A stretch of 59,967 nt of DNA from Chitinophagaceae bacterium (GTDB taxonomy: Bacteria; Bacteroidota; Bacteroidia; Chitinophagales; Chitinophagaceae): assembly GCA_025933775.1 (NCBI GenBank), contig JAICZH010000003.1, positions 1 to 59,967 on the forward strand, read 5' to 3'. Below the pieces are notes generated by a model that saw nothing but the letters and a program-made list of their open reading frames with translations, was not told the DNA's origin and searched no databases. The position numbers were made by a program, and so were the translations under genes. How positions within the stretch are numbered: the stretch's first letter is position 1; each line of letters begins with the position of its first letter. Below are positions 4,261 to 58,702 of this stretch, piece by piece.

Positions 4261-4472
4261 AAAAGGCGCAAAGGTACATCAATTAAGAATTGTGAGTAGT
4301 GAGTTTTAAATGTGAACTTTGTTATGTAATAGAATTATATTTTTCAAGCAATGTTTTTAATCTTCGTGTATGCATTACCGTTAGTTAACTGATAATTTTT
4401 TTTGAGTTGCCTGTTGCGAATTGCTAATTTGTAATCTTTATTCATTCGTGCATTCGTGGCAATAATTTCTCT
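4261..4472. other. Noncoding gap with a dispersed micro-repeat
   Basis: This gap of about 210 bp lies between prfC and the tolC-like gene, both on the minus strand. It holds a minus-strand copy of the ACTAACGGT/TACACGA micro-repeat (4360-4385), and near 4443-4461 a direct repeat of the type ATTCGTG-CATTCGTGGC. No gene is visible. Confidence 0.5.
4360..4385 (-). repeat. Dispersed ACTAACGGT...TACACGAA micro-repeat, intergenic copy 1
   Basis: On the minus strand this reads ACTAACGGTAATGCATACAC followed by GAAGAT. It differs from the copy at 21624-21649 at about four positions. It lies downstream of the tolC-like gene and upstream of prfC. Confidence 0.6.
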
Positions 4473-5768: not shown

Positions 5769-5786
5769 TCAAAATTTTTTTTGTTT

Positions 5787-5842
5787 GAGCCTCACCTCCT
5801 GATAGCTATCGGGGCTCTCCCGAGAGAGAGGGGCTTGAAAGC
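5787..5842. repeat. GC-rich dispersed repeat with a GATAGCTATC palindrome
   Basis: The element begins with GAGCCTCACCTCC. It contains the hairpin CCTGATAGCTATCGGG (about 5798-5813, core palindrome 5801-5810) and a second small hairpin CTCTC-CCGA-GAGAG, ending in GAGGGGCTTGAAAGC. It sits between the RND and TolC genes. It shares its GCCTCACC and GAGAGGGG edges with the copies at 46973 and 58709, with the palindrome in place of their centre. Confidence 0.7.
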
Positions 5843-5924
5843 TACAATCAGGAAGGATCTTCACTAAGTTTAAATTTAGTCGGATAAATATTTATTAATT
5901 TTTATAAGGATTTATAAATATCAT

Positions 5925-9023: not shown

Positions 9024-9040
9024 ATTTAAATAAAGAGAAA

Positions 9041-9057
9041 AGCCTCACCCCATCCCA
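9041..9057. repeat. Partial copy of the GC-rich dispersed repeat
   Basis: AGCCTCACCCCATCCCA, the left edge of the GC-rich repeat family, lies between the adaptor and RND genes. It is truncated compared with the copy at 46973-47007. Confidence 0.5.
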
Positions 9058-9099
9058 AATTATTTATTAATTTTTTTTATAAATATTTTATTAAAAAAT

Positions 9100-12865: not shown

Positions 12866-13834
12866 ATGAAAAAAATCACCGGCGTTGCTGCTTTTATTTT
12901 TTTTAATTTTCTTTTTATCTCTACGCATTGCCATGCGCAGAAAGTGAAGCCGGATACAGTAAAAACGGGCATTTACATTACCAGCATTCATGATATTGAC
13001 TTTAAACAAAAAGAATATACCATTACTTTCTGGCTTTGGTTAAAATATAAAAATAAAGACTTTGATTTTTTGCAAAATCTTGAAGTGCCCCTGGCAAAAA
13101 CTATTACAAGATCATTTGCTACTGTTGATAGCTCCGAAGGAAAAATTTACATCCTCATGAAATTGCAATGTGTAATGAAAGATTCGTGGAAGATTGGAAA
13201 TTTTCCTTTCGACCAACAAAAATTGAGATTGTCTATTGAAAATTCGCAGTACGATTCACATGATTTAATTTTTAGCGTAGATACACTTGGTAAAAATTAT
13301 GATCCGCGTTTTACAATGAGCGGATGGAATATTGATAGCTGCGACATCTCTGTAAGAAATAAAGCTTATGAAACAGCCTTTGGCGATGAAACTGCTGCCA
13401 GGCCTCATTCTGAATACAGTTCATTCAGAGTGAGGGTGAGTGTAAGCCGTCATGCATCAGGTTTATTCTGGAAAATGTTTATAGGAATGTATATTGCTTT
13501 TTTAATTGCGTATGTATGTTTTTATATTCATCCGGATGGTATTGATTCGCGTTTCGGATTAAGCGTAGGCGCTTTATTTGCAGTGATCGGCAATAAATAC
13601 ATTATTGATTCTTCCTTGCCGGAATCCACTTCTTTTACGCTTGTGGATACGCTTCACGGTATTACTTTATTTTTTATTTTATTAATCATCAGCGCCACCG
13701 CTTATTCTTTACAACTTGTAAAAAACAATAAAGAAAAACAGGCAAGTAAATTTGATATGATTGCGGCGCAGATTTTTCTTTTATTATATATAGCTATAAA
13801 TATTTATTTTATTTCGCAAGCGAATGCAGGTTGA
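12866..13834 (+). CDS. Pentameric ligand-gated ion channel homologue (Cys-loop receptor superfamily)
   Basis: 322 residues: signal peptide to about residue 24 (CHAQ), a beta-rich extracellular (periplasmic) domain to about 195, and four membrane helices near 201-220, 231-249, 258-283 and 297-317. The diagnostic loop WKIGNFPFDQQKL (FPFD at 113-116) matches the Cys-loop region but lacks the cysteine pair, as in bacterial homologues such as GLIC and ELIC. The M2-M3 link SLPESTSFTLVD also fits the superfamily. M2 reads SRFGLSVGALFAVIGNKY, so the pore selectivity is not obvious. The short M3-M4 loop (about 13 residues) is typical of prokaryotes. It is a single gene with no neighbour that hints at the ligand. 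Confidence 0.85.
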   Translation: MKKITGVAAFIFFNFLFISTHCHAQKVKPDTVKTGIYITSIHDIDFKQKEYTITFWLWLKYKNKDFDFLQNLEVPLAKTITRSFATVDSSEGKIYILMKLQCVMKDSWKIGNFPFDQQKLRLSIENSQYDSHDLIFSVDTLGKNYDPRFTMSGWNIDSCDISVRNKAYETAFGDETAARPHSEYSSFRVRVSVSRHASGLFWKMFIGMYIAFLIAYVCFYIHPDGIDSRFGLSVGALFAVIGNKYIIDSSLPESTSFTLVDTLHGITLFFILLIISATAYSLQLVKNNKEKQASKFDMIAAQIFLLLYIAINIYFISQANAG

Positions 13835-18630: not shown

Positions 18631-19584
18631 ATGGCGATTCATAAAAAAATTAATCCTTTCTTAAAACAAAATAACGATACGGGTTTTGCAACCAATACCA
18701 ATACTACAGGCGGTCGTTTTATTAATAAAGACGGAAGCTATAATTTGGTAAAAGAAGGAATGCCGTTTATAAAACGTTTTAGCCTTTTTCAGGATATGCT
18801 CAATCTTCCTGTGTGGAAATTCATTACCGTTATTTTTATTTTTTATATAGCCATCAATATTGTTTTTACTTTTTTTTATTTGCTCATTGGCCCTCAGCAA
18901 TTGGAAGGATTGATCACCGGCAGCTATTGGAAAATTGCGAGGGAAATTTTTTATTTCAGCACCCAAACTTTTACTACCGTAGGTTACGGGCATGTAAATC
19001 CTGCGGGAGACGCCGCCAATATTGTTTCTGCAATTGAATCTTTAACGGGATTTCTAAGTCTTGCTATTGTAACCGGCCTTATTTACGGCCGTTTTTCAAA
19101 GCCGCGAAGCTATTTGGTTTTTAGTGATCATGCTTTAATAAGTCCTTACAAAGATGGCAAAGGGCTTATGTTTCGCTTCGCAGCCTTTAAAGATAAGCAT
19201 GCGCTTTCCGATTTGGAAATACGGGTAACCACCGGTTTGCTTTTATTAGAAAAAGAAACGCCGGTTTATAAATATTTCAGCCTTACACTTGAAAGGTCTA
19301 AGGTTGAAAGCATGCCCATGAGCTGGACGGTGGTGCACCCCATTGATGAAAACAGTCCCTTCAATGGATTTACTGAAGAAGATATGAAAACTGCCGATGT
19401 AGAATTATATGTTATGTTGCGCGGATTTGATGATGTGTTTTCAAATTTTGTACAACAACGAACGTCTTATACTTTTAATGAAATTCTTTTTAACCGGAAA
19501 TTTATTCCCATGTTCCGCGAAAGTGATGATGGCCAAACAACCATTCTCGAATTACATAAACTCAATTTGCATAAAGAGGTGTAA
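18631..19584 (+). CDS. Inward-rectifier potassium channel (KirBac type)
   Basis: 317 residues with the complete Kir plan. A cytoplasmic N-terminal strand (GRFINKDGSYNLVKEG) is followed by a slide helix, an outer helix near 62-85, and the selectivity filter TTVGYG (residues 115-120). The inner helix spans about 128-152, and a C-terminal immunoglobulin-like cytoplasmic domain begins at SKPRSYLVFSDHALISPY. TVGYG implies potassium selectivity. Known KirBac channels are gated by lipids and polyamines; nothing here shows the gating ligand. It stands alone with 137 bp upstream, and is the second ion channel in the window after the one at 12866. Confidence 0.92.
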   Translation: MAIHKKINPFLKQNNDTGFATNTNTTGGRFINKDGSYNLVKEGMPFIKRFSLFQDMLNLPVWKFITVIFIFYIAINIVFTFFYLLIGPQQLEGLITGSYWKIAREIFYFSTQTFTTVGYGHVNPAGDAANIVSAIESLTGFLSLAIVTGLIYGRFSKPRSYLVFSDHALISPYKDGKGLMFRFAAFKDKHALSDLEIRVTTGLLLLEKETPVYKYFSLTLERSKVESMPMSWTVVHPIDENSPFNGFTEEDMKTADVELYVMLRGFDDVFSNFVQQRTSYTFNEILFNRKFIPMFRESDDGQTTILELHKLNLHKEV

Positions 19585-20893: not shown

Positions 20894-21604
20894 ATGAAAT
20901 CGCTATCAGAGACATGGTTTGCCGAAGGCTATATTGATTTTGAACTGAAAAAATATATTTTACTTGCGTATCTGCAACAGGTAAATTTATATTTCAATCA
21001 AAACAAGCTGTACCCGCAGCTTGCCGATATTATTTTTCATTATAACAATATTGTAGCATTCAGAGAAAACCGCAGATTTTTGCAGGAACATTTCCCAAAA
21101 CAACTTACCGAAGTGAATTTAAAAAAGCTGCAAATGCAGTATGAAAAGATTATAGAAGATAATGAACTGATGAAAGAGCTTGAAGATATTGTTCATTACT
21201 CTGCAGAAAAAATAAAAAATACTATTCAAAACGGAACAGAGATTTATGAATTTGTGGAAGCGAAATTAAATATAGAACCGGTTGGCCTTATTCCGCTCGA
21301 TACCAGCGAAGGTTATTTATTAATTTGTGACGGACGGTTTAATACAACAGTTGCCTATCAATATCATTTAACGATTTACGAAAAACATGATGAAAAATAC
21401 CGCGGCATACGAACTGATTTTGTAAACCGATGGATTCGTTCGGTAAGCAACTCTGCCGAAAATATAAAAGCAGAATTAATTAAAAACCGGCCACAGTTGC
21501 CCAATCCGGCGGTATATAATATCGAAACACCCCTCGCCTATCCTATGGAAGAAACATTATTGCCAATTGCTAAAAGAAGCTTTGTAAAATACATCAGCAG
21601 CTAA
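20894..21604 (+). CDS. Conserved hypothetical protein
   Basis: 236 residues, no signal peptide and no membrane segment, so cytoplasmic. It starts MKSLSETWFAEGYIDFELKKYILLAYL and is mainly helical to about residue 120 (the acidic/basic MQYEKIIEDNELMKELEDIVHYSAEKIK). It then has a more mixed domain (VGLIPLDTSEGYLLICDG, YRGIRTDFVNRW). I have the impression of a conserved Bacteroidota-only protein but cannot name a family or function. Single gene; the micro-repeat copy at 21624 begins 20 bp after its stop. Confidence 0.7.
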   Translation: MKSLSETWFAEGYIDFELKKYILLAYLQQVNLYFNQNKLYPQLADIIFHYNNIVAFRENRRFLQEHFPKQLTEVNLKKLQMQYEKIIEDNELMKELEDIVHYSAEKIKNTIQNGTEIYEFVEAKLNIEPVGLIPLDTSEGYLLICDGRFNTTVAYQYHLTIYEKHDEKYRGIRTDFVNRWIRSVSNSAENIKAELIKNRPQLPNPAVYNIETPLAYPMEETLLPIAKRSFVKYISS

Positions 21605-21623: not shown

Positions 21624-21649
21624 ACTAACGGTAACGGCTACACGAAAAT
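21624..21649 (+). repeat. Dispersed ACTAACGGT...TACACGAAAAT micro-repeat, intergenic copy 2
   Basis: ACTAACGGTAACGGC then TACACGAAAAT. This is the clearest copy and is used as the reference. It lies between the hypothetical gene (+) and the YtxH-like gene (-), which converge here. Confidence 0.65.
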
Positions 21650-23924: not shown

Positions 23925-23950
23925 TATAACGGTAACGGCTATACGAAAAT
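23925..23950 (+). repeat. Dispersed micro-repeat, intergenic copy 3
   Basis: TATAACGGTAACGGC then TATACGAAAAT, differing from the copy at 21624 at only three positions. It lies between the tatD terminator and the end of the M1 peptidase gene. Confidence 0.65.
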
Positions 23951-23967: not shown

Positions 23968-25593
23968 CTATTTTTCCTCATCAATATTTCCTTCAAACAA
24001 TAAATTTACATCCGGATCCAAAAGGACAGATTGGGGCTTAAACGTAAGAGAAACATTAATATTGACGTTTCGGCTGTTAAAATCAATCGTTTTAAAAAGG
24101 GTTTGCGATCCGCCTTGTATGGCAATCTGCAATGGAAACCGAAATAAATAATTCTGTGTTTGCTGCATACTAATATTTAATATTTTTTTATTAACATCAT
24201 ATTTCCATTTCCCTGTAAGTTCCGGCTGGCCTGCAGTGTAAAGCCATTGCCTGAAAAATAACTGCAGGTTTTGTTTACTAACTTTTTCCATTACGTGCAT
24301 AAAATCATCAGTGGTAGCATTACTTCCTTTATAAGTTGCATAATACGTTCGTATTCCTTTTTGAAACACTTCATTGCCCAGCTTTCTGCGAAGCATGTGC
24401 AACGCCCAGCTTCCTTTTTCATAAGAATTTATATTTAATAATTTCATCAAATTGTTTTTAGAAGATGTATCAACAACCGGCGTTTGTCTTTTTTTATAAA
24501 ATGCTATGATAAGATCCCTGTCGTGCTTCATTCTTTTTTTCAAACTGTCTGCTCCATAACGAAACTCCATATACAAATGCGTCATGTAAGTAGCAAACCC
24601 TTCGCTAAGCCAAACATGCTGCCAGTCTGCTTCTGAAGCTTCATCGCCAAACCATTGATGCGCTGTTTCATGCGCAAAAAGATCTTCCAGCGGCCTGTTG
24701 TGTTTGTGCTGAAAAGAATTGATTGCTACTGAATTTTGATAATAAAAAATATTGCTGGCATTTTCCATTCCTCCAAAAATTGTTTTCGATTGCACGTTAG
24801 CTAATTTTTTATAAGGATAAGGACCGATATAATTTATATAGAAAGGAAGAATATTTTTTGAAACAGCGTATTGCGCAAAGCCACTATCGCGGTTTTCAGG
24901 AAATACCCAACTCGTTACGGGAATGTAATTGATTACCGTATCAAGTTGTACTGCAAAATCTGCAACTCCAATCACCATTACTTTTGTTGGCAACGCCATA
25001 TCTTCTTTCCAATGCGTAAGTTTTAAATGATGTGGAAGATCAGACTCTTCAACAAGAACACCATTGGCAACAATCTGGTAATGATCGGGAGCCGTTACCA
25101 GAAATTCAACAGACGCTTTATCAGCAGGATGATCGTTGCAGGGAATCCAGTCGTGGGCCCTGTTTGGCCAGTTATCGGCAAAGAAAGTGCGGTGTGCAAA
25201 TTTATTCGTATCAATAATAAGCCCATCGGCAGGAATGCCTTCATAAGTTATTTGCACTTTTTTTTCTGAATCTAACGGTAACGCGTACCCGAAAAAAATA
25301 TTTACACGATTGGCATCCTGATTAAATTTTAATTCTGAATTATTTTCTGAAACTCTAATCACTTTCATTCCCTTGCCGGTAGAATCATTAAAATTATTCA
25401 GATCGAAATAAACTTTGCCGGCCGGCTGTTTTGCAACAAAAACAATTGCTGCGTTGCCATGAATTATGTTATTGCTGTCATTAAGAGAAATGGCAAAGTT
25501 GTAATGCTTCACATCAATTGATTTATTTTGCGCAACAACATTATTATTTATAAAAAAAATAAAAAATAGAAAAATAAAATTATAATACTTCAC
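23968..25593 (-). CDS. M1-family zinc metallopeptidase (aminopeptidase)
   Basis: 541 residues when started at the GTG at 25593, which gives a clean signal peptide (KYYNFIFLFFIFFINNNVVAQ). The nearest in-frame ATG codons, 25665 and 25674, would add about 25-27 unrelated residues and overlap the upstream gene, so the GTG is preferred but not proven. The zinc site is HETAHQWFGDEAS...WLSEGFATY (HExxH plus Glu 18 residues later), and the substrate motif GGMENASN matches GxMEN. C-terminal sequence shows the shorter form without the large ERAP-type domain. Exported; it would cleave N-terminal residues from peptides. It follows the lipocalin-like lipoprotein closely on the same strand. Confidence 0.88.
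   Translation of the reverse strand: MKYYNFIFLFFIFFINNNVVAQNKSIDVKHYNFAISLNDSNNIIHGNAAIVFVAKQPAGKVYFDLNNFNDSTGKGMKVIRVSENNSELKFNQDANRVNIFFGYALPLDSEKKVQITYEGIPADGLIIDTNKFAHRTFFADNWPNRAHDWIPCNDHPADKASVEFLVTAPDHYQIVANGVLVEESDLPHHLKLTHWKEDMALPTKVMVIGVADFAVQLDTVINYIPVTSWVFPENRDSGFAQYAVSKNILPFYINYIGPYPYKKLANVQSKTIFGGMENASNIFYYQNSVAINSFQHKHNRPLEDLFAHETAHQWFGDEASEADWQHVWLSEGFATYMTHLYMEFRYGADSLKKRMKHDRDLIIAFYKKRQTPVVDTSSKNNLMKLLNINSYEKGSWALHMLRRKLGNEVFQKGIRTYYATYKGSNATTDDFMHVMEKVSKQNLQLFFRQWLYTAGQPELTGKWKYDVNKKILNISMQQTQNYLFRFPLQIAIQGGSQTLFKTIDFNSRNVNINVSLTFKPQSVLLDPDVNLLFEGNIDEEK
25271..25295 (+). repeat. Micro-repeat-like sequence inside the M1 peptidase gene
   Basis: TCTAACGGTAACGCG then TACCCGAAAA on the strand opposite to the gene, encoding FGYALPL in the gene sense. 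Confidence 0.4.
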
Positions 25594-25645
25594 ACTTTGT
25601 AATTTGAATGATTCAAAAAAAATTTTATCTGAAAAAAATCTTTCA

Positions 25646-26110
25646 TTAATCTTTAATGCGCACATATTTTTCAATATTGATCCTGTTTACCCCAAGACTG
25701 TCAATTTTTTCAACGCCTTTTTGTAATAAAGTATCATTATGAATTGTAATAGTAAAATTAAAATCATTTCCCTCCCATTGCCTGTCGCTGCAATATTTCA
25801 GGTGCTCGGTGTATAGGCTGTCTTTCAAAGAATAAGGGCCGCCACCTGATGAAAAAAATGCTGAATCTTTTCTTTTATCAAGCTCATGACTTAAAAAAGC
25901 AAAATGGGTATCATTAATTATTTTAATAAATTCTTTTCCCTTTGTATAATCTGTAACCGTTGTGTCGCCTTTTTCTATGAGGGTTCCGGAAAGCAATTTC
26001 CAGGTGCCCTGAATAGGAATTGTTGCTTTGACGGTTTCATTTTTTTGAACAGAAGTGCTGCATGAAATCAGCATTACAGAAATTGTGATAATGTAAATTT
26101 GTTTTTTCAT
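25646..26110 (-). CDS. Lipocalin-like lipoprotein
   Basis: 154 residues with lipobox LISC after a short hydrophobic signal. The mature part has IQGTWKLLSGTLI at its start, then TVTDYTKGKEFIKIINDTHFAFLSH, GGGPYSLKDSLYTEHLKYC and TLLQKGVEKID...IEKYVRI. GTW at the start of a small beta-rich domain and a C-terminal closing strand are the pattern of lipocalin-like domains of Bacteroidota. No ligand is known. It is the first gene of a two-gene unit with the M1 peptidase: 52 bp separates its stop from the preferred GTG start. Confidence 0.7.
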   Translation of the reverse strand: MKKQIYIITISVMLISCSTSVQKNETVKATIPIQGTWKLLSGTLIEKGDTTVTDYTKGKEFIKIINDTHFAFLSHELDKRKDSAFFSSGGGPYSLKDSLYTEHLKYCSDRQWEGNDFNFTITIHNDTLLQKGVEKIDSLGVNRINIEKYVRIKD

Positions 26111-28121: not shown

Positions 28122-31100
28122 TTACCATTCACTTTCTACAAAATACATTTCAATCATTCCTTTATTTTTTGCAGCGCGTTTACCACGAAATGTACAATTG
28201 AATTTATCTTTAATAAGATCGTAAGTGCTTTGAGAAATATTTATTTTATTCGGCTCGCTGTTTTGTTCCATGCGTGAAGCGGTGTTCACTGTATCGCCCC
28301 AAATATCAAATGCAAATTTTTTATCGCCTACAACGCCCGCCACGAGCGGCCCTGTGTGAATGCCTATGCGTACATCAAAATAATTTTGTGCATTGGTATT
28401 TTGCCTGAATGAACAAATAAACTCAATGATTTCCATCGCGGCTTTTATCACATTTACAGCGCTGTGATCTTTTTTATCTGGTAATCCGCTAACACATAAA
28501 TACGCATCGCCAATTGTTTTTATTTTTTCAATATTATATTTTGAAATGATTTCATCAAACTTTTTAAAACACGTATCAATTATTGCAACCAATTCTTCGG
28601 GGGAAAGTTTTTCACTTTTGCTGGTAAAATTTTCAAAGTCAGTAAACATAACAGTGGCCACTTCATAGCTGCGTGGTTTCGTGTTTCCGGTTTGCTTTAA
28701 TTCGTTGGCGATATCTTCTGGTAAAATATTTAATAATAAATCATCTGATTTTTTCTTTTCGATTCTTAATTCATTCGTTCTTTCTTCCACTTTATGCTCA
28801 AGCTCATTATAAAACAATGCATTTTCAATTGATATCGCCATTTGACCTGCTAATAATTTCAAGAGCCCCACACGTTTTTCAGTAAATGCGCCAAGAGTAA
28901 GATCATTGGCAAGATAAATGACCGCCTGAATTTTTCCCATGTTCAACAAAGGAATGCAAAGAATAGATTTCGATTCATTATTTTTTATGAATACATCATT
29001 ACTGAAAAGCTGGCTCCTTGCGGCGTCATCAAGAATAACGGTTTCCTGAGTCATATATACATAATTTATCACAGATTCTGCAAGCAAATTATTTTTTGAA
29101 ACGGGAACTGATTGCATAATTTTTATTTCTTCGTCTCCGGCTGTTATTTCAGCTTCAATATATCGTTCGCCATTTTTTTCCATGATAAGAAAACCCGTTT
29201 GCGCGCCGGCATTTTCTAAAATTATCTGCATCATTTTTTTTAAGAGCTTTGGTAAAATTATTTCGCCAGATAATGCAGAGGAGGCTTTTAAAATCGTTTC
29301 AAGGTCAATGTTTCCGGTTCTCTCTCTTGTAGTTTCCTGCAATGATTCCATTTGCCATTCTGCAGCACCGCCGCCTCTAAGCTGTGTATATTGCTTTTCC
29401 ATCTCTTTTAATTTTGCATCAGCGCCCCAGCGTTTATAAACCCTGTATGCATTTTGCAAATAAAAATTGGCAAGCAAATCCTGTTTTGTATTTACAAAAA
29501 AACGGCCTGCTCTTTCCCAGCAATAAGCAATATCATTTGTCATCCCGTTTTCGGTTCCAAATTTCAGCGCTTTATCATACAATATTTTTGCGGCTTCGTT
29601 ATTTCCTTTTAAATAATTGTATTCGGCTTCGAGTAAAAATATTTTGTGGCTATAATTTTGCGGGCATTCTTTTTCATATTTTTTTAAAAAATGAATATCC
29701 TTTGTAATCTGTGCCAGCGCTGCTTTTCGTGAGGGAGCGCTTAATGGAATATCTGAAATAAGCAGCGAACGATAATAATAAAATAAAGGATACAAAGCAG
29801 TTCCCTTCACACTTTCCTGAAAGCGCTCTGCGAGTGAAAGATATTTTTTTGCATTGCTGTTCAAATTAAATACCAAAGCGAGATATAATTTCTGCAGGTA
29901 TAAATTTTGAAAATAAATTTCATTGCTCTTGGTTACGTCGCTAATATCCATTTGCGATTCAGAAAAAATTTTTCCATTCAGCTCATCAGGGTTTTGTGTT
30001 TCTTCCAAAAGGTTGGCGATTGACTGGCGAAATACGCGCAATCTTTTTAATGTAAGATCTTGCTTAAATTTTTCAATAGTTCCATCAAGGGCTTCTGCTT
30101 TTTTATACAGTTCCTGCAGTGGATAACCCATAATGAATAACTGGTAAACGATATTGTGCGCTGCATAAGAAGCGTATTCGCTATCGCCCGATTCCAGTGA
30201 GCTTTTGAAAGATTTGTCGAGATCGTGAATGGTTTCAGGAAAAGGTTTTTTCCAGTGGGTTAAAAAAATATTGCCCGTTACCATAATGGAGCCAATCAAT
30301 TCTTCAGCATGTATTTTTTTTGCAAGATGCAGGGCAATTTCTCCGAAATGAATTCCTTTATCTGTTTCGTTTAAATAAACGCTTAAAATATATCCATAAG
30401 CCACAAAGCTGAAAGGTGATTTACGCGACAAGCCATGCTTTACAGTAAGACTTATCATTTTAAAAACGAGTATCGGAACCAGGGTGGGAACTGCAAAAAA
30501 TGAAGCCGAAGAAATATCGGATAAAATGCGCATAGCTGCATTTTTTTCAGCGTTTTTCATTTCGGGCAAGTTGTTGAAATAATCCATAGATTTATTTCGC
30601 AACAAGAATTTGGTTTTTAATAAATCTTTTGTAACCTGCAACCTGCCTGGGTTTGCGGGCAAATCTATTCCAAGTTTTTTAAGAATGTTTAAGCCTAGCG
30701 TTACCGCTTCCGAAGGTTTATTTTGAGCAATAAGCTTTTTAATATTTATTTCATACGCTTTGGCAGAATCAATTAATGACTGGCTGTTTTGTAATATTTT
30801 ATTTACAAAATTATCTACTTTATCATACCGCGCAGATAAGTAAGCGGCATCGGCTGCGTTGGTTGTTATTTGCAATAAAAGATCATAATGATTTTGCCAA
30901 TCACTTTCATCCAGTACATTTAAACCTTTTTCAAAATATTGTAAAGCCTGCGGGTAAGCTGTTGATGCCATTGCTTTATGCCCGGCAGAAAGATTTAAGT
31001 TGGCGAGATATAATTTTTCTTTTTGGTCTGTAATTTCATCTGCGCCTAAGTTCCATTGATTCACGAGTTCAAATAATTTTTCCTGCAACTCACTTTCGTT

Positions 31101-36312: not shown

Positions 36313-37857
36313 TTATTCTGCTGAATCATCTAACACCAACGGATACTCGAAAGGCTCGCTGTAACCGGGATAGATTCCTTCAATAGTAACCTGCTTGTTA
36401 TCGCCAATTACATTTTTAAGATCATCTACCGATTTTATTTCTTTACCATTTGCTTTTGTAATTATAAATCCATCCCGCATTCTCGTTTGATCATTGATAG
36501 CGCCTTCATTAATTTTTTTCACTACCACACCGCCATCAATTCCATATTCTTTTGCTTTTTTAGGATCAAGTGTCTCCAGTTCAGCCCCAAGCCTGTCAAT
36601 CATTCCTGCGGGTTTTACAATTGCATAATTGCCTGCATTATTTTTTAAAGTAACAGGATAGGTGCGTTCCGTTCCGTTTCTCTCAATGGTTACATTTATT
36701 TTATCGCCGGGTTTATAGCTGCTCAATTGTTCCTGCAATTCAGAACCCGAGTTGATAGTAACATCATTAATCTTTTTTATAACATCGCCTTTTTGTATTC
36801 CGGCTTCTAATGCAGCGCCGTCTTTTGTTAAGTCGGTAATATAAATGCCATTTATGTTTGCTGGAATATTTTCTTGTTTCTTTTGTTGCTCATTAAGATT
36901 ACCGGCATCAATAAACATGGCGCCCAAAAATCCTCTTTGTACGCTGCCGTATTTCACCAGGTCGTTCACCACTTTTTTTACAATATCAACCGGTATTGCA
37001 TAAGCATAACCATTGTAATAACCTGTGGGCGATGCAATGGCAGAATTGATACCAATCAATTGTCCATTGGTATTAATTAATGCGCCGCCGCTATTACCGG
37101 GGTTTACTGCTGCATCGGTTTGTAAAAAAGATTCAACAGCCATAGATTGTCCGCCGGTTCTGTCATGGTTTAAACCTAAATGCCGTGACTTGGCGCTAAT
37201 GATACCTGCGGTAACTGTTGCATCAAGATTTAATGGATAACCTAATGCAAGAACCCATTGCCCGATTTTTACATCAGCAGAATTTCCATACAACATAAAG
37301 GGTAAATTGTTTGCATCCACTTTTACAACTGCAAGGTCGTAAGAAGGATCGGAACCAATAACCTTTGCGGTGTATGTTTTGCGATTGCTTAAAGTAACGG
37401 TTACTTCATCGGCGCCAGCAACCACATGATTGTTGGTAACAATATATCCATCATCACTTATAATAACACCGGAACCGGAACCGATTTCGGGATACATGTG
37501 TTGATTGCGCGGATTACCAAAAAACTGGCTGAATGGATCATCATCGCCAAACAAATCTGAAAAAGGATTTTTTTGATTGGGAAGATTATTGTTTACCTGG
37601 CGCGGATTGATTTTTGTTTTTATATGAACCACCGTAGGAATGGCTGCTGCTGCGGCTTCTGTAAAATCTGCAGGACCACCGGTTGGGTTGCCATTGCTAT
37701 CAAAAAATCCGGCATACTTATAATTGGCGGGGATATTTGCAGTTTGAAAATTGGGATTATTGTTGCTGTTATGCTCGTATTGATTATATCCTAAAATAAC
37801 AGCGATTGTAGTGAGTGCGCTTATAAGCACAGTAAGTAAAATGTTCTTTGTTTTCAT
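36313..37857 (-). CDS. Do/HtrA-family serine endopeptidase
   Basis: 514 residues. An N-terminal hydrophobic segment (ILLTVLISALTTIAVILGY) is a signal peptide or anchor. The trypsin-like domain has His144 (TNNHVVAGADEV), Asp174 (PSYDLAVVKVD) and Ser256 (NPGNSGGALIN). Two PDZ domains follow (about 310-400 and 410-505). It is a periplasmic protease and chaperone for misfolded envelope proteins. Monocistronic. On the minus strand TAATTTTG (37892-37899), about 35 bp before the ATG, resembles a -7 box, but no matching -33 box is seen. Two PDZ domains place it with DegP/DegQ rather than DegS. Confidence 0.94.
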   Translation of the reverse strand: MKTKNILLTVLISALTTIAVILGYNQYEHNSNNNPNFQTANIPANYKYAGFFDSNGNPTGGPADFTEAAAAAIPTVVHIKTKINPRQVNNNLPNQKNPFSDLFGDDDPFSQFFGNPRNQHMYPEIGSGSGVIISDDGYIVTNNHVVAGADEVTVTLSNRKTYTAKVIGSDPSYDLAVVKVDANNLPFMLYGNSADVKIGQWVLALGYPLNLDATVTAGIISAKSRHLGLNHDRTGGQSMAVESFLQTDAAVNPGNSGGALINTNGQLIGINSAIASPTGYYNGYAYAIPVDIVKKVVNDLVKYGSVQRGFLGAMFIDAGNLNEQQKKQENIPANINGIYITDLTKDGAALEAGIQKGDVIKKINDVTINSGSELQEQLSSYKPGDKINVTIERNGTERTYPVTLKNNAGNYAIVKPAGMIDRLGAELETLDPKKAKEYGIDGGVVVKKINEGAINDQTRMRDGFIITKANGKEIKSVDDLKNVIGDNKQVTIEGIYPGYSEPFEYPLVLDDSAE

Positions 37858-42488: not shown

Positions 42489-42514
42489 TATAACGGTTAT
42501 GTGTACACGAAAAT
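42489..42514 (+). repeat. Dispersed micro-repeat, intergenic copy 4
   Basis: TATAACGGTTATGTG then TACACGAAAAT. It is more diverged in the centre than the others but keeps both conserved ends. It lies between the rhodanese gene and a convergent secreted-protein gene. Confidence 0.6.
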
Positions 42515-47589: not shown

Positions 47590-50500
47590 ATGAAGCGTAT
47601 TTTTTTTCTTTTCATCATTTTTTTTATTTCGCTTTCCTGTTTTTCACAAGCCAATTATAATGTTACCGATCCTGAAAAAGATTTTAAGGAAGCCAAAGAA
47701 TTTTTTATTAAAGATGAATACAGCCTTGCTTATCCTTTGCTGAAAGCCTTGCAGGACAAGTATCCTGAGAATACACAAAGCAGCCATCAATATCTTAACC
47801 AGGACATAGCATATTATTATATCGTTTGCGGGCTTAAATTACATCAGCCCGTTGCTGAAGATGCAGCAAAGCGTTTTGTAGATGCGGCTAATAATGAGCC
47901 GCGTCAGCAAATGATGAGCTATCATTTGGCAAAATATTATTTTACCAAAAATGATTATGCACGTGCCGTTGTTTTTTATGAAAGAGCGGGTTATGATAAT
48001 TTAAGCAATGAAGAAATTGCTGATGCAAAATTTGAACTGGCTTATTCTTATTTTAATCTGAAACAATTTGATAAAGCCAAACCTTTGTTTGATGAAATTC
48101 ATCAATTGCCCGACAATAAATATTATTTCGATGCAAATTATTATTACGGCTTTATCAGTTACCGCAATCGCGATTATGCAAATGCATTAAGTGCATTTCA
48201 AAAAGTGGAAAACAGGGATAAATACAAAGGCTTGGTGCCTTACTACATTGCACAGATATATTATTTTGAAGGAAATAAAGATGAAGCATTGCGTTATGGC
48301 GAACAAGCGCTTTCGCGCAATGATATTTATTACCGCAATGATCTTGATTTGTTAATTGGCCAATTGTATTTTGAGAAAAAACAATTTGCAAAAGCATTGC
48401 CTTTTCTGGAAGAATATGTAAATAAAAGTGATAAAGTTTCTAAAGAAGTTATGTACGAACTGAGCTATTGCTATTATGATGCAAACCAAGTGGAGAAAGC
48501 GATTGAGGGCTTTAAGCAATTGAGTAATGAAAAAGATTCGATGGGGCAAAACTCAATGTATTTGTTGGGAGATTTGTATTTAAGAACTAATCAAAAAGAA
48601 AATGCAAGAAGCGCTTTTCAATACAGCGCAAATAACAACAGCAATCGCAAGCAACAGGAAATTTCGCGATTTAATTATGCGAAACTTTCTTATGAATTAG
48701 GCTATCAGAATATCGCATTAAGCGAAATGAATAAATTTTTAGATCTGTATCCCACATCAGAATATGCTGATGAGGCAAAAGAAATTTTAATTAATCTTTT
48801 AGCCAATACCAATAATTACAATGATGCAATGGCTTTGTATGCTTCATTTGATAAACCAACGCCTGCCATGCAAAAAGTTTATCCCAAACTTTTATTTGGA
48901 AGAGCAACGGAATTTATTAATGATGGAAAACTACCGGAAGCAGATGACCTGCTAACAAAAATTATCCGAGATCCTAATGCCGGCGCGGTTTTGCCGTTTG
49001 CCAATTTCTGGAAAGGAGAAATTGCGTATAGGCTTGCCCGTTATGATGACGTAATTAAATATATGAATGCATATCTTTTACAAGGAGGCATTCAGGGCGA
49101 AACAAACCCTGATGCAGCAAGATATACATTGGGATATGCTTATTTAAAAACTGAAAATTATCCTTTGGCGCTTACTAATTTTAAACAGGTTTCTCCCACC
49201 ATCAGTTCACAATCTTCTTCTTTGCAACAGGATGCTTATGTAAGAGCTGCCGATTGTTATTTCATGCAAAAAAATTACAGCGTTGCAAAAAATATGTATC
49301 AGAATGTAATTAATAATGGCTTGCCACAAAGCGATTATTCTTTGTATCAGATTGCATTGATCAGTGGAATAAATAATCCAAATGAAAAAATAAAAACATT
49401 TAATGCATTGGTGCAACGTTATCCGAAAAGTGATCTCGTTGCTGAAGCGTACATGCAGGTTGCGAATGCTTACATGGTGCAGGAAAAATTCCGCGATGCT
49501 ATTCCGTATCTCAATAAAATTTTGGATATAAAGGACGCCAGTGGCCAATTTCCCAAAGTGTATTTAAAGCTTGGGCTTTCCAATTATAATTTAAATAATA
49601 ATGAAGAAGCATTAAAATATTATCAAAAATTAGTTAACCAATATCCGCAATCGCCTGAAGCTGATGAAGCATTGGATAACATGAAAAATATTTATGTAGA
49701 GCTTGGCCGCCCGAATGATTATGTTGATTTTGTTCAAAAGGCAGGAAAAGTAATCAGCATTTCAGAAGCGGATTCTATAACGTATGCATCGGCAGAATTA
49801 AAATATAATAACAATGATTGTGCTGCAGCTATTGATGCATTTTCAAATTATATCTCAAAATATCCGCAGGGAGCTTATGTTTTAGAAGCAAATTTTTACC
49901 GAAGCGAATGTTATTCAAAAAATAAAGATTGGCAAAATGCTTTGCCAGGTTATGAATATGCTGTAAACCAGGGCAGCAGCAGGTTTGCAGAAAGAGCGGC
50001 TTATGCAGCAGCGCACATTTTTTATTTTGAAACAAAAGATTATAGCAATGCAAAAATTTATTTTAATAAATTAAAAGATCTTGCCACTACTCCCGAAAAT
50101 CAATTGGAAGCTTTGCGCGGATTGGTGCGGAGTTATTATCAAACGAAAGATTATGCGCAAGCCAATGATGCAGCAAAAGAATTGCTTACAAAAAAAGGAT
50201 TAAGCACCGATGATAAAGCCATTGCCAATTTGGTTCTTGGAAAATCGTTGCAGGCTGCAAACCAGTGTGAGCAAGCCATTGCAGCGTTTAAAGAAGTAGC
50301 TGCGATTAATAAATCAGAATGGGGCGCCGAAGCACGTTATGAAATTGCCAATTGTTATTTAATGTTGAATCAATTGCCAGCTGCCGAAAAAGCCGGGCTG
50401 CAAGTGATTAAAGTTACCGGCTCTTATGATTATTGGGTTGCAAAGGCCTACATTTTATTAGGCGATGTTTATTTGCAGGAAAAAGATTATTTCAATGCAA

Positions 50501-50631
50501 AAGCAACTTATCAAAGCGTTGCAAATAATGCAACCATTCCTGAATTAAAAAAAGAAGCGCAGGATAAATTGAATATTGCTATAAGCCAGGAACAACAAAA
50601 TTCAAAAGTGGCTCCCGATACAACAAAATAA
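47590..50631 (+). CDS. Large exported TPR protein
   Basis: 1013 residues with a signal peptide (ending CFSQ, about residue 21). Almost the whole chain is TPR-type helix pairs, with repeats such as AKYYFTKNDYARAVVFYERAG, YYYGFISYRNRDYANALSAFQKVENRD, LPYLNKILDIKDASGQFPKVYLKLGLSNYNLNNNEEALKYYQKLVNQYPQSPEAD (middle) and AKAYILLGDVYLQEKDYFNAKATYQSV (end). Such proteins act as periplasmic scaffolds. It is followed 29 bp later by an outer-membrane beta-barrel gene, so the pair may assemble or operate together. It resembles BamD/YbgF-like and SprE-like TPR proteins in plan, but I cannot tie it to either. Confidence 0.8.
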   Translation: MKRIFFLFIIFFISLSCFSQANYNVTDPEKDFKEAKEFFIKDEYSLAYPLLKALQDKYPENTQSSHQYLNQDIAYYYIVCGLKLHQPVAEDAAKRFVDAANNEPRQQMMSYHLAKYYFTKNDYARAVVFYERAGYDNLSNEEIADAKFELAYSYFNLKQFDKAKPLFDEIHQLPDNKYYFDANYYYGFISYRNRDYANALSAFQKVENRDKYKGLVPYYIAQIYYFEGNKDEALRYGEQALSRNDIYYRNDLDLLIGQLYFEKKQFAKALPFLEEYVNKSDKVSKEVMYELSYCYYDANQVEKAIEGFKQLSNEKDSMGQNSMYLLGDLYLRTNQKENARSAFQYSANNNSNRKQQEISRFNYAKLSYELGYQNIALSEMNKFLDLYPTSEYADEAKEILINLLANTNNYNDAMALYASFDKPTPAMQKVYPKLLFGRATEFINDGKLPEADDLLTKIIRDPNAGAVLPFANFWKGEIAYRLARYDDVIKYMNAYLLQGGIQGETNPDAARYTLGYAYLKTENYPLALTNFKQVSPTISSQSSSLQQDAYVRAADCYFMQKNYSVAKNMYQNVINNGLPQSDYSLYQIALISGINNPNEKIKTFNALVQRYPKSDLVAEAYMQVANAYMVQEKFRDAIPYLNKILDIKDASGQFPKVYLKLGLSNYNLNNNEEALKYYQKLVNQYPQSPEADEALDNMKNIYVELGRPNDYVDFVQKAGKVISISEADSITYASAELKYNNNDCAAAIDAFSNYISKYPQGAYVLEANFYRSECYSKNKDWQNALPGYEYAVNQGSSRFAERAAYAAAHIFYFETKDYSNAKIYFNKLKDLATTPENQLEALRGLVRSYYQTKDYAQANDAAKELLTKKGLSTDDKAIANLVLGKSLQAANQCEQAIAAFKEVAAINKSEWGAEARYEIANCYLMLNQLPAAEKAGLQVIKVTGSYDYWVAKAYILLGDVYLQEKDYFNAKATYQSVANNATIPELKKEAQDKLNIAISQEQQNSKVAPDTTK

Positions 50632-50660: not shown

Positions 50661-52304
50661 ATGCAATTTCTTCAAAATAATATTTATAAATTTTTTGCGG
50701 TAGCATTAATATTTTTTATTACTAACGGTAACGCCTATGCGCAGAATGATACATCAAGAAGACAAACTATTGAGATTACTTCTTCTTATAAACCTGAATT
50801 GCGTAATACGGTTAAAATAAATTTATATGCATCCCCGATCACGGCAGATACAAGCCGGCCAAGGCTTGCATACAACATTCCACCGCAAAATTTATTTTTT
50901 ACTTATCAACCAATTTCATTAAAACCGCTTGCGCTTGATATAGATACAGCATTACAATTGGGCGACCGGAATCAATTGAAAGTTGGTATCGGAAGTTTTA
51001 CTACGCCTTATGTTGCGGGCGCATTTAGTTTTGGCGATGGAAAGAAAAATTTGTTGAATGTATATGGTAATTATATTTCATCAAGAGGCAAAATTGATAA
51101 CCAGGATTTCAGTGAGATTAGCGTAAAGGGTGATGGAAGCATTTTTACTGCAAAGAATGAAATATACGCCAATGCTGGTTTTGCGCAGCATGAATATTAT
51201 CAGTATGGTTACAATCACAGCAAATATAGTTTTGCAAAAGCTGATATAAGAAGAAGTTACCAGGATTTATCAGCAGGCATTGGATTGAGAAATACTGCTG
51301 TGAATGATTTAAATTTTATTTACGATCCGCATTTGGAATTGCATGCTTTTTCAAGAGAAAATAAAGCAACTGAAACTACATTAATTCTTAATCTTCCGGC
51401 AGAAAAAAAATTCAGCGAATCTGTTTCAATAAAAATAAATGCCACCGGCAACTTTGATAAATATGAACAAAAACAAACAGGATTGCAGGTTACGAACAAT
51501 CTGTTTGAACTGGCTCCTGAGTTTGTATTTTACAGCGACAGGTTTACTTTTCATGGTGGCGTTACACCCGCCTGGAATAATAATGATGTAAATCTTTTGC
51601 CAAATATTTATGCAGAAGTACAATTGCAAAAAAATATTTTGATGGTTCAGGCAGGATGGATTGGTAATTATATTGCCAATAGTTTCAGAACATTGAGCGG
51701 TGAAAATCCATACATGCAGGATCCTACATTTTTAAACAACACTAAAGAAGTGCAATATTACGGAGGCATAAAAGCCACTGTGGGCAAGCATTTCAACTTT
51801 AATGCACGGGCTGCATTTATAAATTACAACGATGTACCTTTGTTTATAAACGATAATGTAGATGGTAAAAGTTTTTATATAAAAAATGAAAGCAGAATTG
51901 ACAATTTTCAAATTCATGGCGATTTAAATTTTATCAATCAAGACAAGTTTACACTTACCACCGCGCTCGATTTAAATACTTATACCGGTTTGCTTGATAA
52001 TTCAAAAGCGTGGGAATTAATTCCGCTTAAACTTACCGGCTCGCTTCGGTGGAATGCATTTAAACAAGTTTTAATTAAAGGTGATCTTTTTGCATTCTCG
52101 GGCGCAAAAGCTTTATTGAGCGATGGATCAGAAAAAACATTGAAAGGTGGAACAGACCTCAGCGCCGGCGCTGAGTTTAAAATAACCAAACGATTCAGCG
52201 CATGGCTCGATTTTGATAATTTGCTCAACAGTAAATATGAACGATGGAACAATTATCCGGTGTATGGTTTGCAGGTGATTGGCGGAGTATTGATTCATTT
52301 TTAA
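50661..52304 (+). CDS. Outer-membrane beta-barrel protein (TonB-receptor-like barrel)
   Basis: 547 residues, signal peptide ending NAYAQN. The chain alternates hydrophobic and polar residues with many aromatic turns (YQYGYNHSKYSFAKADIRRSYQDL, FNFNARAAFINYNDVPLFINDN). It ends in the barrel-closing strand GLQVIGGVLIHF, with WLDFDNLLNSKYERWNNYPVYG just before, like the last strands of TonB-dependent receptors. A plug domain of normal size is not seen. The gene starts 29 bp after the TPR gene, so one operon. Its 5' end contains a copy of the ACTAACGGTAACG micro-repeat inside the signal peptide coding region. Role unknown. Confidence 0.78.
   Translation: MQFLQNNIYKFFAVALIFFITNGNAYAQNDTSRRQTIEITSSYKPELRNTVKINLYASPITADTSRPRLAYNIPPQNLFFTYQPISLKPLALDIDTALQLGDRNQLKVGIGSFTTPYVAGAFSFGDGKKNLLNVYGNYISSRGKIDNQDFSEISVKGDGSIFTAKNEIYANAGFAQHEYYQYGYNHSKYSFAKADIRRSYQDLSAGIGLRNTAVNDLNFIYDPHLELHAFSRENKATETTLILNLPAEKKFSESVSIKINATGNFDKYEQKQTGLQVTNNLFELAPEFVFYSDRFTFHGGVTPAWNNNDVNLLPNIYAEVQLQKNILMVQAGWIGNYIANSFRTLSGENPYMQDPTFLNNTKEVQYYGGIKATVGKHFNFNARAAFINYNDVPLFINDNVDGKSFYIKNESRIDNFQIHGDLNFINQDKFTLTTALDLNTYTGLLDNSKAWELIPLKLTGSLRWNAFKQVLIKGDLFAFSGAKALLSDGSEKTLKGGTDLSAGAEFKITKRFSAWLDFDNLLNSKYERWNNYPVYGLQVIGGVLIHF
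50721..50745 (+). repeat. Micro-repeat-like sequence inside the barrel protein signal peptide
   Basis: ACTAACGGTAACGCC then TATGCGCAGA, encoding TNGNAYAQ at the signal peptide cleavage site of the beta-barrel protein. Confidence 0.4.
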
Positions 52305-55001: not shown

Positions 55002-55017
55002 ATTCCAAATGTTCGTC

Positions 55018-55074
55018 GGTTGGTGAGGGCACCAACCGGGGCGACTGCTGCGGGCGGTGTCCCCACCTCCAACT
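55018..55074. repeat. GC-rich hairpin element in the moxR - TPR spacer
   Basis: GGTTGGTG (55018-55025), loop AGGG, CACCAACC (55030-55037) is a perfect 8-bp hairpin. It is followed by GGGGCGACTGCTGCGGG and CGGTGTCCCCACCTCCAAC. The block is strikingly GC-rich in an AT-rich region. Its edges (GTTGG.../...CCAAC) could be element ends. Confidence 0.65.
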
Positions 55075-55129
55075 TTGAAAAGAAAAAAAATAAAAAAATA
55101 TGATACAAACTTTATCCGCATTACTTCAT

Positions 55130-56107: not shown

Positions 56108-56110
56108 GCA

Positions 56111-58702
56111 TTATGTTTTTGGTTTTGAAAAAAAGTTTATTGTTCTGTAAAAATTTAAAAATTTAGAAAAACCTTCTTTAAATGGAATTTGTTTTTTTAT
56201 TGTTTTGTAAAATGGTAAATAAAAATTCTGAATAATATTTTTTTCATTTAATGTAAGAACTTCTTTTGAGTATTTATTTTTTAAATAAATCTGCATAAAC
56301 GATGCAAAGTTTGTTTTAAATTCAGGATCAATTTTTTCTTTTGCAAATGCTAAAGGCGACATTTCGTTTCTTGAATAGCCAAGCTGGTTACAATAATAAG
56401 TTGCTGAAATGTATGACCAGTAAGCTTTTTGCGAGATCGCCCTGCTGTGCTTTGCTTTAAAATGCATCCATTGAAATGTAATCCATGGCAGACTAAAAAG
56501 TAATATTATAAATAAAACAAGTATGGCAATTCCAATCCAAATTATTTGCGAAAAGTTTAATCGTTGTTTTGCAATTTCCTTTTTTGGTTGTTGTTTTTGT
56601 TGTGTAGAATCTATAATTTTTATTTCATCAATTGGGGCCGGCTTTGGAATTTTTTGAAAAATTTCTTCATAATTATTGCTGTCTTTTAATGCAATATTTT
56701 TAAACTGCTCAGCAAAAGAAAGCGCAGTTATTTCATTTCCTTTTTTCAATTCGCTGAGCGGAACCTGCCCGCTATCTCTGCTGATAGTTGCTAACGAAAC
56801 ATCCATATCAAGGTTTACCGGTTTTTTTAAATTAAATGTTTTATCATGATAAATCATTTGACTAACGGTCATGCCTACACGCTTTTTTGTTGTATCTACT
56901 TCAGTTACTTTTCCATGTGCAACAAACAACGCAGTTTGAACCGTAATGGGAGGTGTTCCATCCGGCGCCGGAGCTTGTTGTTGCTCTGTGCTGGGAATGG
57001 TTGTATCAAAATCGAGCCATCCATAACCCGGAAAAAAAACCTGTGTCCATGCATGTGCCTGATCTTCGTAAAACCAATACCAGCCTTTGTTTTTAGTGCT
57101 TCTGTCTATCGTTAAAAAACCTGTTGCCACTCGTGTGGGCAAGCCAAGTGAGCGCAATAAAAAAAGAGTAGCGCCGGCAAAGTATGCACAATATCCTTTT
57201 CGGTTTTGAAATAAAAAATAATTCAGTTTATTGGCGCTGGGCAAGCCCGGCACACCAGGATTATCGGTATATTTAAAAAGTGGTTGGCCCGTTTCATCTG
57301 CACTTAAAAAATAATTTCTTACTGCAATAATTTTATCAATAGGAGTTGTTGCATTTTTTGTTATTTCTTTTGCCAAAGCCCGTACTGAATCAAAATCATC
57401 CCCTCTTGGAATGAAGGTATAATAATTCATAAACGCTGTGTCAACATTATTCCAGTTGGTTATTTTACGCAATTCATCGAAGCGTTGTTTTTGAAAATTT
57501 TCCAATACTTTATTTCCTGCAGGATTATAAACAAAGTATGCGCTATTTAACTCGCTCACCAGCATCTTTGCACGATAAGCGCTTTTAAATTGCTGTTTAT
57601 ATTCTTTATCCACTGCAATTGGCTGACAAAAAAATGCTGTCTCGGGTGCAAGAAATTCTTTTGGCGAAAGCAATACTTTATACACTTCCGTGCTTACTAC
57701 TTTTTTATCAAGGTATCCTTTGCTTTTAAATAAAACAGATGAATCGGTTTGTGTAAAATACAATGGAATTTTCGACGGATCGGGTTGAAACAAATCATTA
57801 GAAGGCATTAAGCTATCTGTTTCCAATGTTTGTGTAGTAGTATCAAATTTGGTATAATAATCATACGTATAATACAATGGATTGGGCACATCAGAGTTTG
57901 GAAAATAATTATCCAGCCTTGCAATAAACACCAATCTTTTCGTAGAATTTCTTCCCCCGCTCAATCCCATTTGTTTTTTATTGCTTACCGTTCCATCTTT
58001 ATTTTCTTTTGTAAGGCTTTCTTTATTCGGCGCCTGTGTTTCATTTTTTCCGCCGCCATATTGTTTTTCAATTGCATTAAATTGTTTTTTGTAAAAAGAA
58101 AAAATAAATAATAAAATAATTCCTGCGATGATACCAAAGCCAATTAATTTTTTTACAATGAACCACGAGAATTTTGGTTCATCATCATTCATATTGCGAA
58201 CCAGTTCAGCAGTATAAATGATGTAAAAAGCAAAAACCAAAACCGGCGCAAACGCTATTATTAATTTTCGTGCAGTAATGTCGGATGTATTGCTAACCAC
58301 AATAATTTGCAATAACATCAGCAATGCAGAAAGAACCGCAGGAAACCATCGAAGCCTTGCAAATGCCCAGCCCGTAAGCCATCCAACGATAAACAAAAAA
58401 GAAAGAATATAAAATTTAGTAATTACATAAAAGGCTGTGAATTCGCCCGTATAAATATTGTTTACTATTTTACCAATAATAAAAAGTAAAATGAGTAATG
58501 GCAAAAAAGTTGTAATAAACCTGAAATTAAAACTGTAAAACCAGCAACCTGCAATAAGTCCTGCGGCTAAAAATAAACTTTCAGTAATCCATTGGCTTTC
58601 CAAAACAGCATAATAATTATTCAAATGCCAAAGCATATAAGCGCCGATAGCAATAGCAGGAACTATAAGCAACAATAATCTTGCAATTGTTTTTTTAATC
58701 AT
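56111..58702 (-). CDS. Transglutaminase-like membrane protein (TgpA-type with DUF4129-like tail)
   Basis: 863 residues. About six membrane helices occupy residues 1-210. A large extracytoplasmic region contains the transglutaminase core: NRKGYCAYFAGATLFLLRSLGLPTRVATGF (Cys), DQAHAWTQVFFPGYGWLDFDTT (His, Asp). A further helix (about 725-750, IIWIGIAILVLFIILLF) is followed by a cytoplasmic tail like DUF4129 (SPLAFAKEKIDPEFKTNFASFMQIYLKNKYS). The family is part of MoxR-DUF58 systems; the substrate is not known. The start lies about 100 bp after the DUF58 gene, and a GC-rich repeat sits in that gap. Confidence 0.88.
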   Translation of the reverse strand: MIKKTIARLLLLIVPAIAIGAYMLWHLNNYYAVLESQWITESLFLAAGLIAGCWFYSFNFRFITTFLPLLILLFIIGKIVNNIYTGEFTAFYVITKFYILSFLFIVGWLTGWAFARLRWFPAVLSALLMLLQIIVVSNTSDITARKLIIAFAPVLVFAFYIIYTAELVRNMNDDEPKFSWFIVKKLIGFGIIAGIILLFIFSFYKKQFNAIEKQYGGGKNETQAPNKESLTKENKDGTVSNKKQMGLSGGRNSTKRLVFIARLDNYFPNSDVPNPLYYTYDYYTKFDTTTQTLETDSLMPSNDLFQPDPSKIPLYFTQTDSSVLFKSKGYLDKKVVSTEVYKVLLSPKEFLAPETAFFCQPIAVDKEYKQQFKSAYRAKMLVSELNSAYFVYNPAGNKVLENFQKQRFDELRKITNWNNVDTAFMNYYTFIPRGDDFDSVRALAKEITKNATTPIDKIIAVRNYFLSADETGQPLFKYTDNPGVPGLPSANKLNYFLFQNRKGYCAYFAGATLFLLRSLGLPTRVATGFLTIDRSTKNKGWYWFYEDQAHAWTQVFFPGYGWLDFDTTIPSTEQQQAPAPDGTPPITVQTALFVAHGKVTEVDTTKKRVGMTVSQMIYHDKTFNLKKPVNLDMDVSLATISRDSGQVPLSELKKGNEITALSFAEQFKNIALKDSNNYEEIFQKIPKPAPIDEIKIIDSTQQKQQPKKEIAKQRLNFSQIIWIGIAILVLFIILLFSLPWITFQWMHFKAKHSRAISQKAYWSYISATYYCNQLGYSRNEMSPLAFAKEKIDPEFKTNFASFMQIYLKNKYSKEVLTLNEKNIIQNFYLPFYKTIKKQIPFKEGFSKFLNFYRTINFFSKPKT
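56861..56885 (+). repeat. Micro-repeat-like sequence inside the transglutaminase gene
   Basis: ACTAACGGTCATGCC then TACACGCTTTT on the strand opposite to the gene. Both conserved ends are kept. Confidence 0.4.

Follow-up and report, generated by a model that had tools for sequence, protein, structure and literature searches.

Positions 1 to 59,967 of contig JAICZH010000003.1 from a Chitinophagaceae bacterium (assembly GCA_025933775.1; the whole stretch analysed, hereafter the window) carry repeated copies of a word of about 26 bp, lying both between and within genes, that may mark the DNA of its genome as self. A first-pass annotation made from the letters alone had listed eight copies and taken them for a small mobile or protein-binding element. 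A version of the word is present at all eight places; the exact pattern given for them holds at 21624-21649 only (1 match, against 0 in 100 shuffles), while the other seven depart from the 18 fixed letters of the 26-letter word, TAACGGTNNNGNNTACACGAAAAT, by 0 to 5 mismatches. We described the word with a weight matrix trained on the window and 20 further stretches of its genome (G000; 3.25 Mb in 197 contigs), 458 kb chosen on contigs having matches. The resulting consensus, acTAACGGtaACG(C/G)aTAcACGAAAAt, is asymmetric, with several conserved blocks around a partly variable centre; information is highest at TAACGG, GC (positions 10-11), TA and CG (17-18), and beyond ~26 bp the flanks have almost nothing in common save a slight A-richness.

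Between genes, the word lies at 4360..4385 (minus strand, matrix score 33.6), flanked by two minus-strand open reading frames (ORFs); at 21624..21649 (plus, 34.8, the exact consensus), 20 bp past the end of ORF 20894-21604; and at 23925..23950 (plus, 33.6) and 42489..42514 (plus, 26.6), each with convergent ORFs on either side. Within genes, it is read in frame as TNGNGCTK at 1642..1667 (plus, 28.0) in an 863-amino-acid ORF (76-2667, plus), and as TNGNAYAQ at 50721..50746 (plus, 30.4) near the 5' end of a 547-amino-acid ORF without a Pfam match. By our reading of the rows, the 863-amino-acid ORF holds a similar stretch 228 bp upstream of the 1642 copy that is of equal length and lacks the word. 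The 50721 copy, with 5 mismatches, is at chance level by simple count (3 places against a control mean of 2.07), yet reaches its matrix score of 30.4. The Thr-Asn-Gly-Asn peptide that the first-pass annotation had invoked for the coding copies fits these two; it does not fit 25271..25296 (plus, 32.0) or 56861..56886 (plus, 27.2), which run antisense to genes matched by Pfam, M1 peptidase-like (23968-25674, minus) and transglutaminase-like (56111-58702, minus), and encode other peptides.

Several copies had been overlooked, among them antisense copies at 3247..3272 (plus, 23.8) in the gene for release factor RF3 (2674-4260, minus; Pfam RF3_C), where four orthologs align gap-free; at 49020..49045 (minus, 28.3) in a TPR protein gene (47590-50631, plus; Pfam); at 59684..59709 (plus, 29.6) in ORF 58804-59958 (minus); and, more weakly, at 36329..36354 (plus, 17.1) towards the 3' end of a gene for a trypsin/PDZ protease (36313-37857, minus; Pfam). 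Further weak copies missed there lie at 2412 and 7332.

Abundance, placement and origin of the word

The genome-wide count against controls that the first-pass annotation had proposed came out in favour of a real repeat: at up to 3 mismatches, the 18 fixed letters match 184 + 194 = 378 times in G000, and the reversed word 2 + 2 = 4 times. Within the window alone, 7 places match at this stringency, whereas 15 Markov-1 sequences average 0.07. The matrix finds 142 sites in the 458 kb, as compared to 6 in Markov-2 sequence, and after refitting 139 sites as compared to 6.75 with permuted matrices, or ~30 per 100 kb. Matches at up to 2 mismatches number 40 in the 458 kb and 225 in the 3.25 Mb, so that site density in the sample somewhat exceeds that of the genome, and the counts suggest a total of ~800 to 1,000 sites by weight matrix, not the 1,000 of plain scaling. 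When over-represented 8-mers and dyads of G000 were listed without supervision, CTAACGGT, ACTAACGG and ACGG-10-ACGA came out on top. The word thus shares one property of the DNA uptake sequences (DUS) and uptake signal sequences (USS) of transformable bacteria, namely hundreds to thousands of copies per genome.

A simple gene caller places 101 of the 142 sites in ORFs and 41 between genes. Those in ORFs use all six combinations of frame and strand (52 along the gene, 49 against it), which rules out an artefact of a TNGN-coding peptide, and their host genes include RF3, leucyl-tRNA synthetase (LeuRS), Mfd and RecQ. That coding copies might partly be chance, as first supposed, finds no support in the sample as a whole, where 99 of the 139 refitted sites lie in ORFs.

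Site density in G000 is higher between genes than within them (p = 7e-10): convergent gaps hold 2.2 per kb, tandem gaps 0.88 and divergent ones 0.21, and intergenic sites fit the consensus better (mean score 32.6 versus 24.3 for coding sites; p = 7.5e-12). The enrichment in convergent gaps is what a terminator or other regulatory site might show, but we consider such a site very improbable: 101 of the 142 sites fall within ORFs, divergent gaps, which bear promoters, hold few of them, and no stable hairpin was found. Of 107 pairs of adjacent sites, 51 lie on one strand, so there is no overall polarity. Occurrence on both strands, in genes and between them, without general polarity is again a property of DUS and USS. 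A polar motif of the kind of the FtsK-orienting polar sequences (KOPS) or Chi is rejected overall on the same 51 of 107 pairs, replichores being unmappable in 197 contigs. Gaps of less than 500 bp number 8, at the lower edge of the 8 to 21 given by random placement. Direct-orientation pairs were seen on contig 84 of G000 (16343 and 16367, 24 bp apart) and on contig 170 (38170 and 38197, 27 bp apart).

The origin of individual sites was followed by comparing segments around coding sites with genomes of the same genus. Queries with 16 of 18 chosen segments gave 50 alignments (30 returned loci and 20 further matches, from 101 listed matches), of which 46 were free of gaps in the site and in three codons on each side; the 4 gapped ones all represent one LeuRS stretch. 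At Mfd, the peptide SLTLTATPIPRTLQF is identical in five genomes, and the word appears or disappears there through synonymous changes, its DNA score being 28.1 in G000, 23.4 in G016, 21.4 in G006, 3.4 in G009 and -3.5 in G017. A score of at least 12 was retained in 11 of 15 orthologs from G016, 5 of 12 from G006, 1 of 12 from G009 and 0 of 11 from G017. Because the orthologous sites are ungapped and the Mfd score varies beneath an identical peptide, these alignments indicate that the word builds up through substitution, not insertion, at the sites tested, as DUS and USS do.

This bears directly on the first-pass annotation's description of a mobile or protein-binding element. A micro-repeat inserting in and between genes, similar to miniature inverted-repeat transposable elements (MITEs) or repetitive extragenic palindromic (REP) sequences, would account for many near-identical copies at unrelated places and for edges that are sharp at ~26 bp. 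We find it hardly credible. In 46 of the 50 alignments, orthologous genes have the stretch without the word and without any insertion or deletion; sites use six frames; and the flanks share almost nothing past ~26 bp. An earlier and broader comparison (33 alignments of 21 sites) had 8 gapped alignments, but only 1 among the 10 with at least 50% identity. Nor did single-strand folding of three copies give a stable structure or hairpin, and scans of the window against Rfam (gathering threshold) and for tRNAs gave no matches. Mobile micro-elements of the MITE, REP or Rickettsia palindromic element (RPE) type, whose empty sites differ by an insertion or deletion, were rejected on the ortholog alignments. 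Protein binding is the better half of that description, and an asymmetric, unstructured word of ~26 bp would suit it.

Distribution among relatives

We counted a looser form of the word against its reversed control in 147 Chitinophagaceae genomes, G000 included. The excess is at least 3-fold in 14 genomes and at least 2-fold in 20, and 111 fall below the control. The differences arise even within one genus, where counts against control are 775/34 in G000, 825/62 in G016 and 233/18 in G019, as compared to 20/27 in G009 and 14/31 in G007, and the word recurs patchily in other genera of the family. In a 197-genome sample of the class, none of the 193 genomes from outside the family exceeds 41 matches, the top ratio being 13 versus 6 (G236).

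With the G000 matrix held fixed, stretches of G016, G006, G021, G027, G013 and G001 exceed all 100 permuted matrices at all four thresholds, G028 does so at the highest only and G003 at none. The reversed matrix is a harder control; at score 12, forward and reversed counts are 133/8 in G000, 33/4 in G016, 19/4 in G006, 29/2 in G021 and 18/2 in G027. In 80-kb samples set against 30 permuted matrices, there is a clear excess in G141 (13 sites, permuted maximum 4) and G076 (8, maximum 3) and none in G081 (4, maximum 3), G101 (6, maximum 7) or G070 (5, maximum 4), so the looser-word ratios of the latter three are weak evidence. Iterative refinement on samples of 80 to 120 kb drifted in G003, and we therefore relied on the fixed matrix with reversed or permuted controls and on larger samples. 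In these larger samples, matrices refitted to each genome, and favoured by that fit, give 30 sites per 100 kb in G000, 34 in G016, 39 in G021 and 32 in G027, again in six frames. The core of the word is common to G016, G021 and G027, with differences in sharpness and small changes of letter. Intergenic sites make up 40 of 139 in G000, 38 of 179 in G016, 5 of 156 in G021 and 2 of 64 in G027: the intergenic excess is shared by the first two genomes and reversed in the last two.

An unsupervised hunt for 8-mers and dyads in the relatives recovered the word in G016 only; the other top words were unrelated to it, and no alternative, dialect-like word was clear. Other repeats came to light in this hunt. 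Contig 18 of G013 (L094, 6887-14708) has 68 copies of an 8-mer in a repeat ending GGATTAAGAC, at a spacing of ~73 bp, which resembles a CRISPR array. G021 has often clustered palindromic repeats such as TCGCCTCCGGCGA (L115, 18038; L117, 11041-11118), similar to REP sequences or terminators; their core, TCGC-5-GCGA, was counted 73 times over 400 kb, in part outside the palindromic repeats.

Patchiness of this kind is also typical of defence systems, and the word might be a self mark whose bearers a defence system spares. Only one contig of a viral collection has an exact match to the strict form (L248, 6240-6263; no chance expectation was computed), which would agree with this. We judge it improbable, as short DNA would go unmarked at a density of one site per 3 kb; no defence gene was linked to the word, none having been looked for.

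The distribution bears equally on the possibility that the word binds a cytoplasmic protein that organises or repairs the chromosome, in which case selection, and not a drive through uptake, would keep the number and spread of sites. Such a protein would explain sites on both strands at ~1 per 3 kb of the sampled stretches and their presence in housekeeping genes, and would require no uptake machinery, of which the known outer-membrane kinds that we searched for were not found in G000. Two observations make it a rather unlikely account, if still a serious one: firstly, the word is at or below control in G009, a genome sharing 70 to 92% identity with G000 in the tested segments, and in G007 of the same genus, which would be unusual for a core chromosomal function; secondly, the overall orientation bias of KOPS or Chi is absent. 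Were it correct, the word would be a new abundant chromosomal site that a closely related species does without.

Apart from the word, the window holds a weak match to a ligand-gated ion channel (Neur_chan_LBD) and an inward-rectifier potassium channel-like gene (12866-13834 and 18631-19584), and a 1,699-amino-acid protein (28122-33221) that unites kinase, AAA, GAF and nucleotide cyclase domains on a single chain.

Uptake machinery and the case for self-recognition

In Haemophilus and Neisseria, uptake-biased transformation is held to give rise to words that are abundant, non-polar and blind to reading frame, that build up through substitution and that occur patchily in related genomes. We lean, by a little, towards a function of this kind for the word, as a genome-wide self-recognition signal working in the manner of a DNA uptake sequence. 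On this view, fragments carrying the word would be favoured by a receptor that binds DNA and most likely sits at the cell surface; such fragments from close kin would be taken up and recombined; alleles nearer to the word would be copied into the population slightly more often; and the word would accumulate by point substitution wherever the sequence tolerates it, with the best fit in unconstrained intergenic DNA between convergent genes and a poorer one in coding sequence, whatever the frame or strand. We observed that the word is abundant and patchy, that it arises by substitution, that it uses all frames and that its strands show no overall polarity; the receptor, the uptake and the drive we infer from them.

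Natural transformation in Riemerella, of the same phylum (Bacteroidota), provides the closest machinery for comparison: a screen for its pilus-independent uptake genes turned up, among others, ComEC, DprA, ComF and RecA together with a DUF5689 protein and a putative barrel (PMC8459023). G000 has both ComEC and DprA, as expected of a DUS or USS system. ComEC was found in 25 of 26 genomes tested, with no match in G101, and DprA in 33 of 35, the exceptions being the motif-poor G015 and G067; being near-universal, both were set aside as uninformative. For the type IV pilus ATPase (PF00437), 24 of 26 genomes gave matches at E up to 0.001 and 3 passed the cut-off, each match covering part of the 370 positions near the nucleotide-binding region, in ORFs that read as other ATPases. 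Type IV pilus machinery with a minor-pilin receptor was thus not found in these 26 genomes, where no full PF00437 ATPase is present and pilins were not searched for.

Neither member of the Riemerella pair, the DUF5689 protein and the adjoining outer-membrane barrel, has a match in G000. Among the family genomes, strong DUF5689 matches (E < 1e-25, our own cut) occur in 2 of 20 with a word ratio of at least 2 and in 67 of 127 others (Fisher p = 4.5e-4, kinship uncorrected), a near-exclusive pattern; weak matches occur in G021, G081, G113 and G118. In L181-L190, a barrel-like protein lies directly upstream of the DUF5689 protein (with two DUF5689 stretches where scanned), as in Riemerella RS04915/RS04920. 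This upstream partner has no Pfam match and is a putative outer-membrane barrel by alignment; within the sample, the arrangement is frequent in motif-poor genomes of the family and rare in motif-rich ones. A Riemerella-type DUF5689 protein or barrel as receptor for the word was rejected on the near-exclusive pattern. The receptor, if one exists, is outside the known kinds that we searched for.

Uptake sequences are known, as far as we are aware, from two proteobacterial families (PMC5031613), and the word has likenesses to both. As with the DUS of Neisseriaceae, for which dialects exist and some family members have none, it has very many copies, variants within one family and family genomes that lack it (PMC3630211), and sits in genes as well as between them. 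It differs in its ~26 bp and several conserved blocks, as compared to the 10 to 12 bp of DUS, in forming no terminator pairs (a single inverted pair within 150 bp among sites scoring at least 15), in its phylum, and in that no type IV pilus ATPase was found in the genomes tested; a role in uptake would be by analogy. The USS of Pasteurellaceae likewise have a core with weaker flanking positions (PMC7811141) and spread through the genome without general orientation bias (PMC2346458), but their sequence is another, they are spaced at ~1 kb as compared to ~3.3 kb for the word in the G000 sample (H. influenzae has 1,465 USS cores and N. meningitidis 1,892 DUS; PMC7811141), and no type IV pilus ATPase was found with the word. 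The Riemerella system shares phylum and pilus-independent uptake genes (PMC8459023), and differs in that searches for its DUF5689 protein and barrel found neither in G000 or in the majority of the motif-rich genomes. The term "uptake sequence" appears in neither PMC8459023 nor PMC6533540. Our literature searches, which subscription papers and preprints largely escape, found no report of an uptake sequence in Bacteroidota, and a search with strings of the word gave none on the topic by title among the matches listed.

Other genome-wide over-represented words offer a further comparison. The cyanobacterial highly iterated palindrome (HIP1) is a palindrome, and KOPS and Chi are short and polar; the word, by contrast, is long, asymmetric, devoid of a HIP1-like palindromic core and without overall polarity.

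A number of observations weigh against a self-recognition signal. The known machinery does not follow the word: ComEC and DprA do not track it (G101, without a ComEC match, has a word ratio of 3.95), a full type IV pilus ATPase was found in none of the 26 genomes, in which matches are partial only, strong DUF5689 is present in 1 of 14 genomes with a ratio of at least 3 as compared to 68 of 133 others, and, of 17 motif-rich and 17 motif-poor genomes tried, 1 and 6 respectively have the barrel partner (G003, G005 and G017 in the latter set being only weakly poor). The intergenic DNA of G021 and G027 is poorer in sites than their coding DNA, a pattern not expected from a simple drive into neutral DNA. 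Spacing is at most marginally even (its coefficient of variation is 0.86, where random placement gives 0.83 to 1.16; not significant), the contig of the window is skewed, with 10 of its 12 sites in one direction, and the word, at ~26 bp, exceeds a DUS or USS core in length. The apparent cost in amino acids (identity 313/446 at site codons versus 4,470/5,500 within 60 residues) is biased upwards by our having picked site codons for the word in G000, and the nine codons preceding the site are also less conserved (73.8%). Because no full type IV pilus ATPase was found, the Riemerella pair is absent from most motif-rich genomes tested, and receptor and uptake are a matter of interpretation, we do not assign the word to DUS or USS, though it would work like one.

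A broader proposal, which we hold tentatively and at somewhat less than even confidence, is that part of the Chitinophagaceae evolved sequence-specific recognition of self-DNA independently of Neisseriaceae and Pasteurellaceae, with a 26-bp word that reshaped the genome, apparently down to amino acids of core enzymes, and a reader distinct both from type IV pilins and from the known DUF5689 protein of Bacteroidota, which it possibly replaces. If the word is indeed an uptake signal, gene-content comparison between motif-rich (G000, G016, G018 and G019) and motif-poor (G007, G009 and G010) species of one genus would offer a route to its receptor. It would form a third group of uptake sequences, in a phylum whose transformation does not use type IV pili, and so a strong case of convergent evolution, and would suggest kin-biased transformation as a means of DNA exchange among these Bacteroidota.

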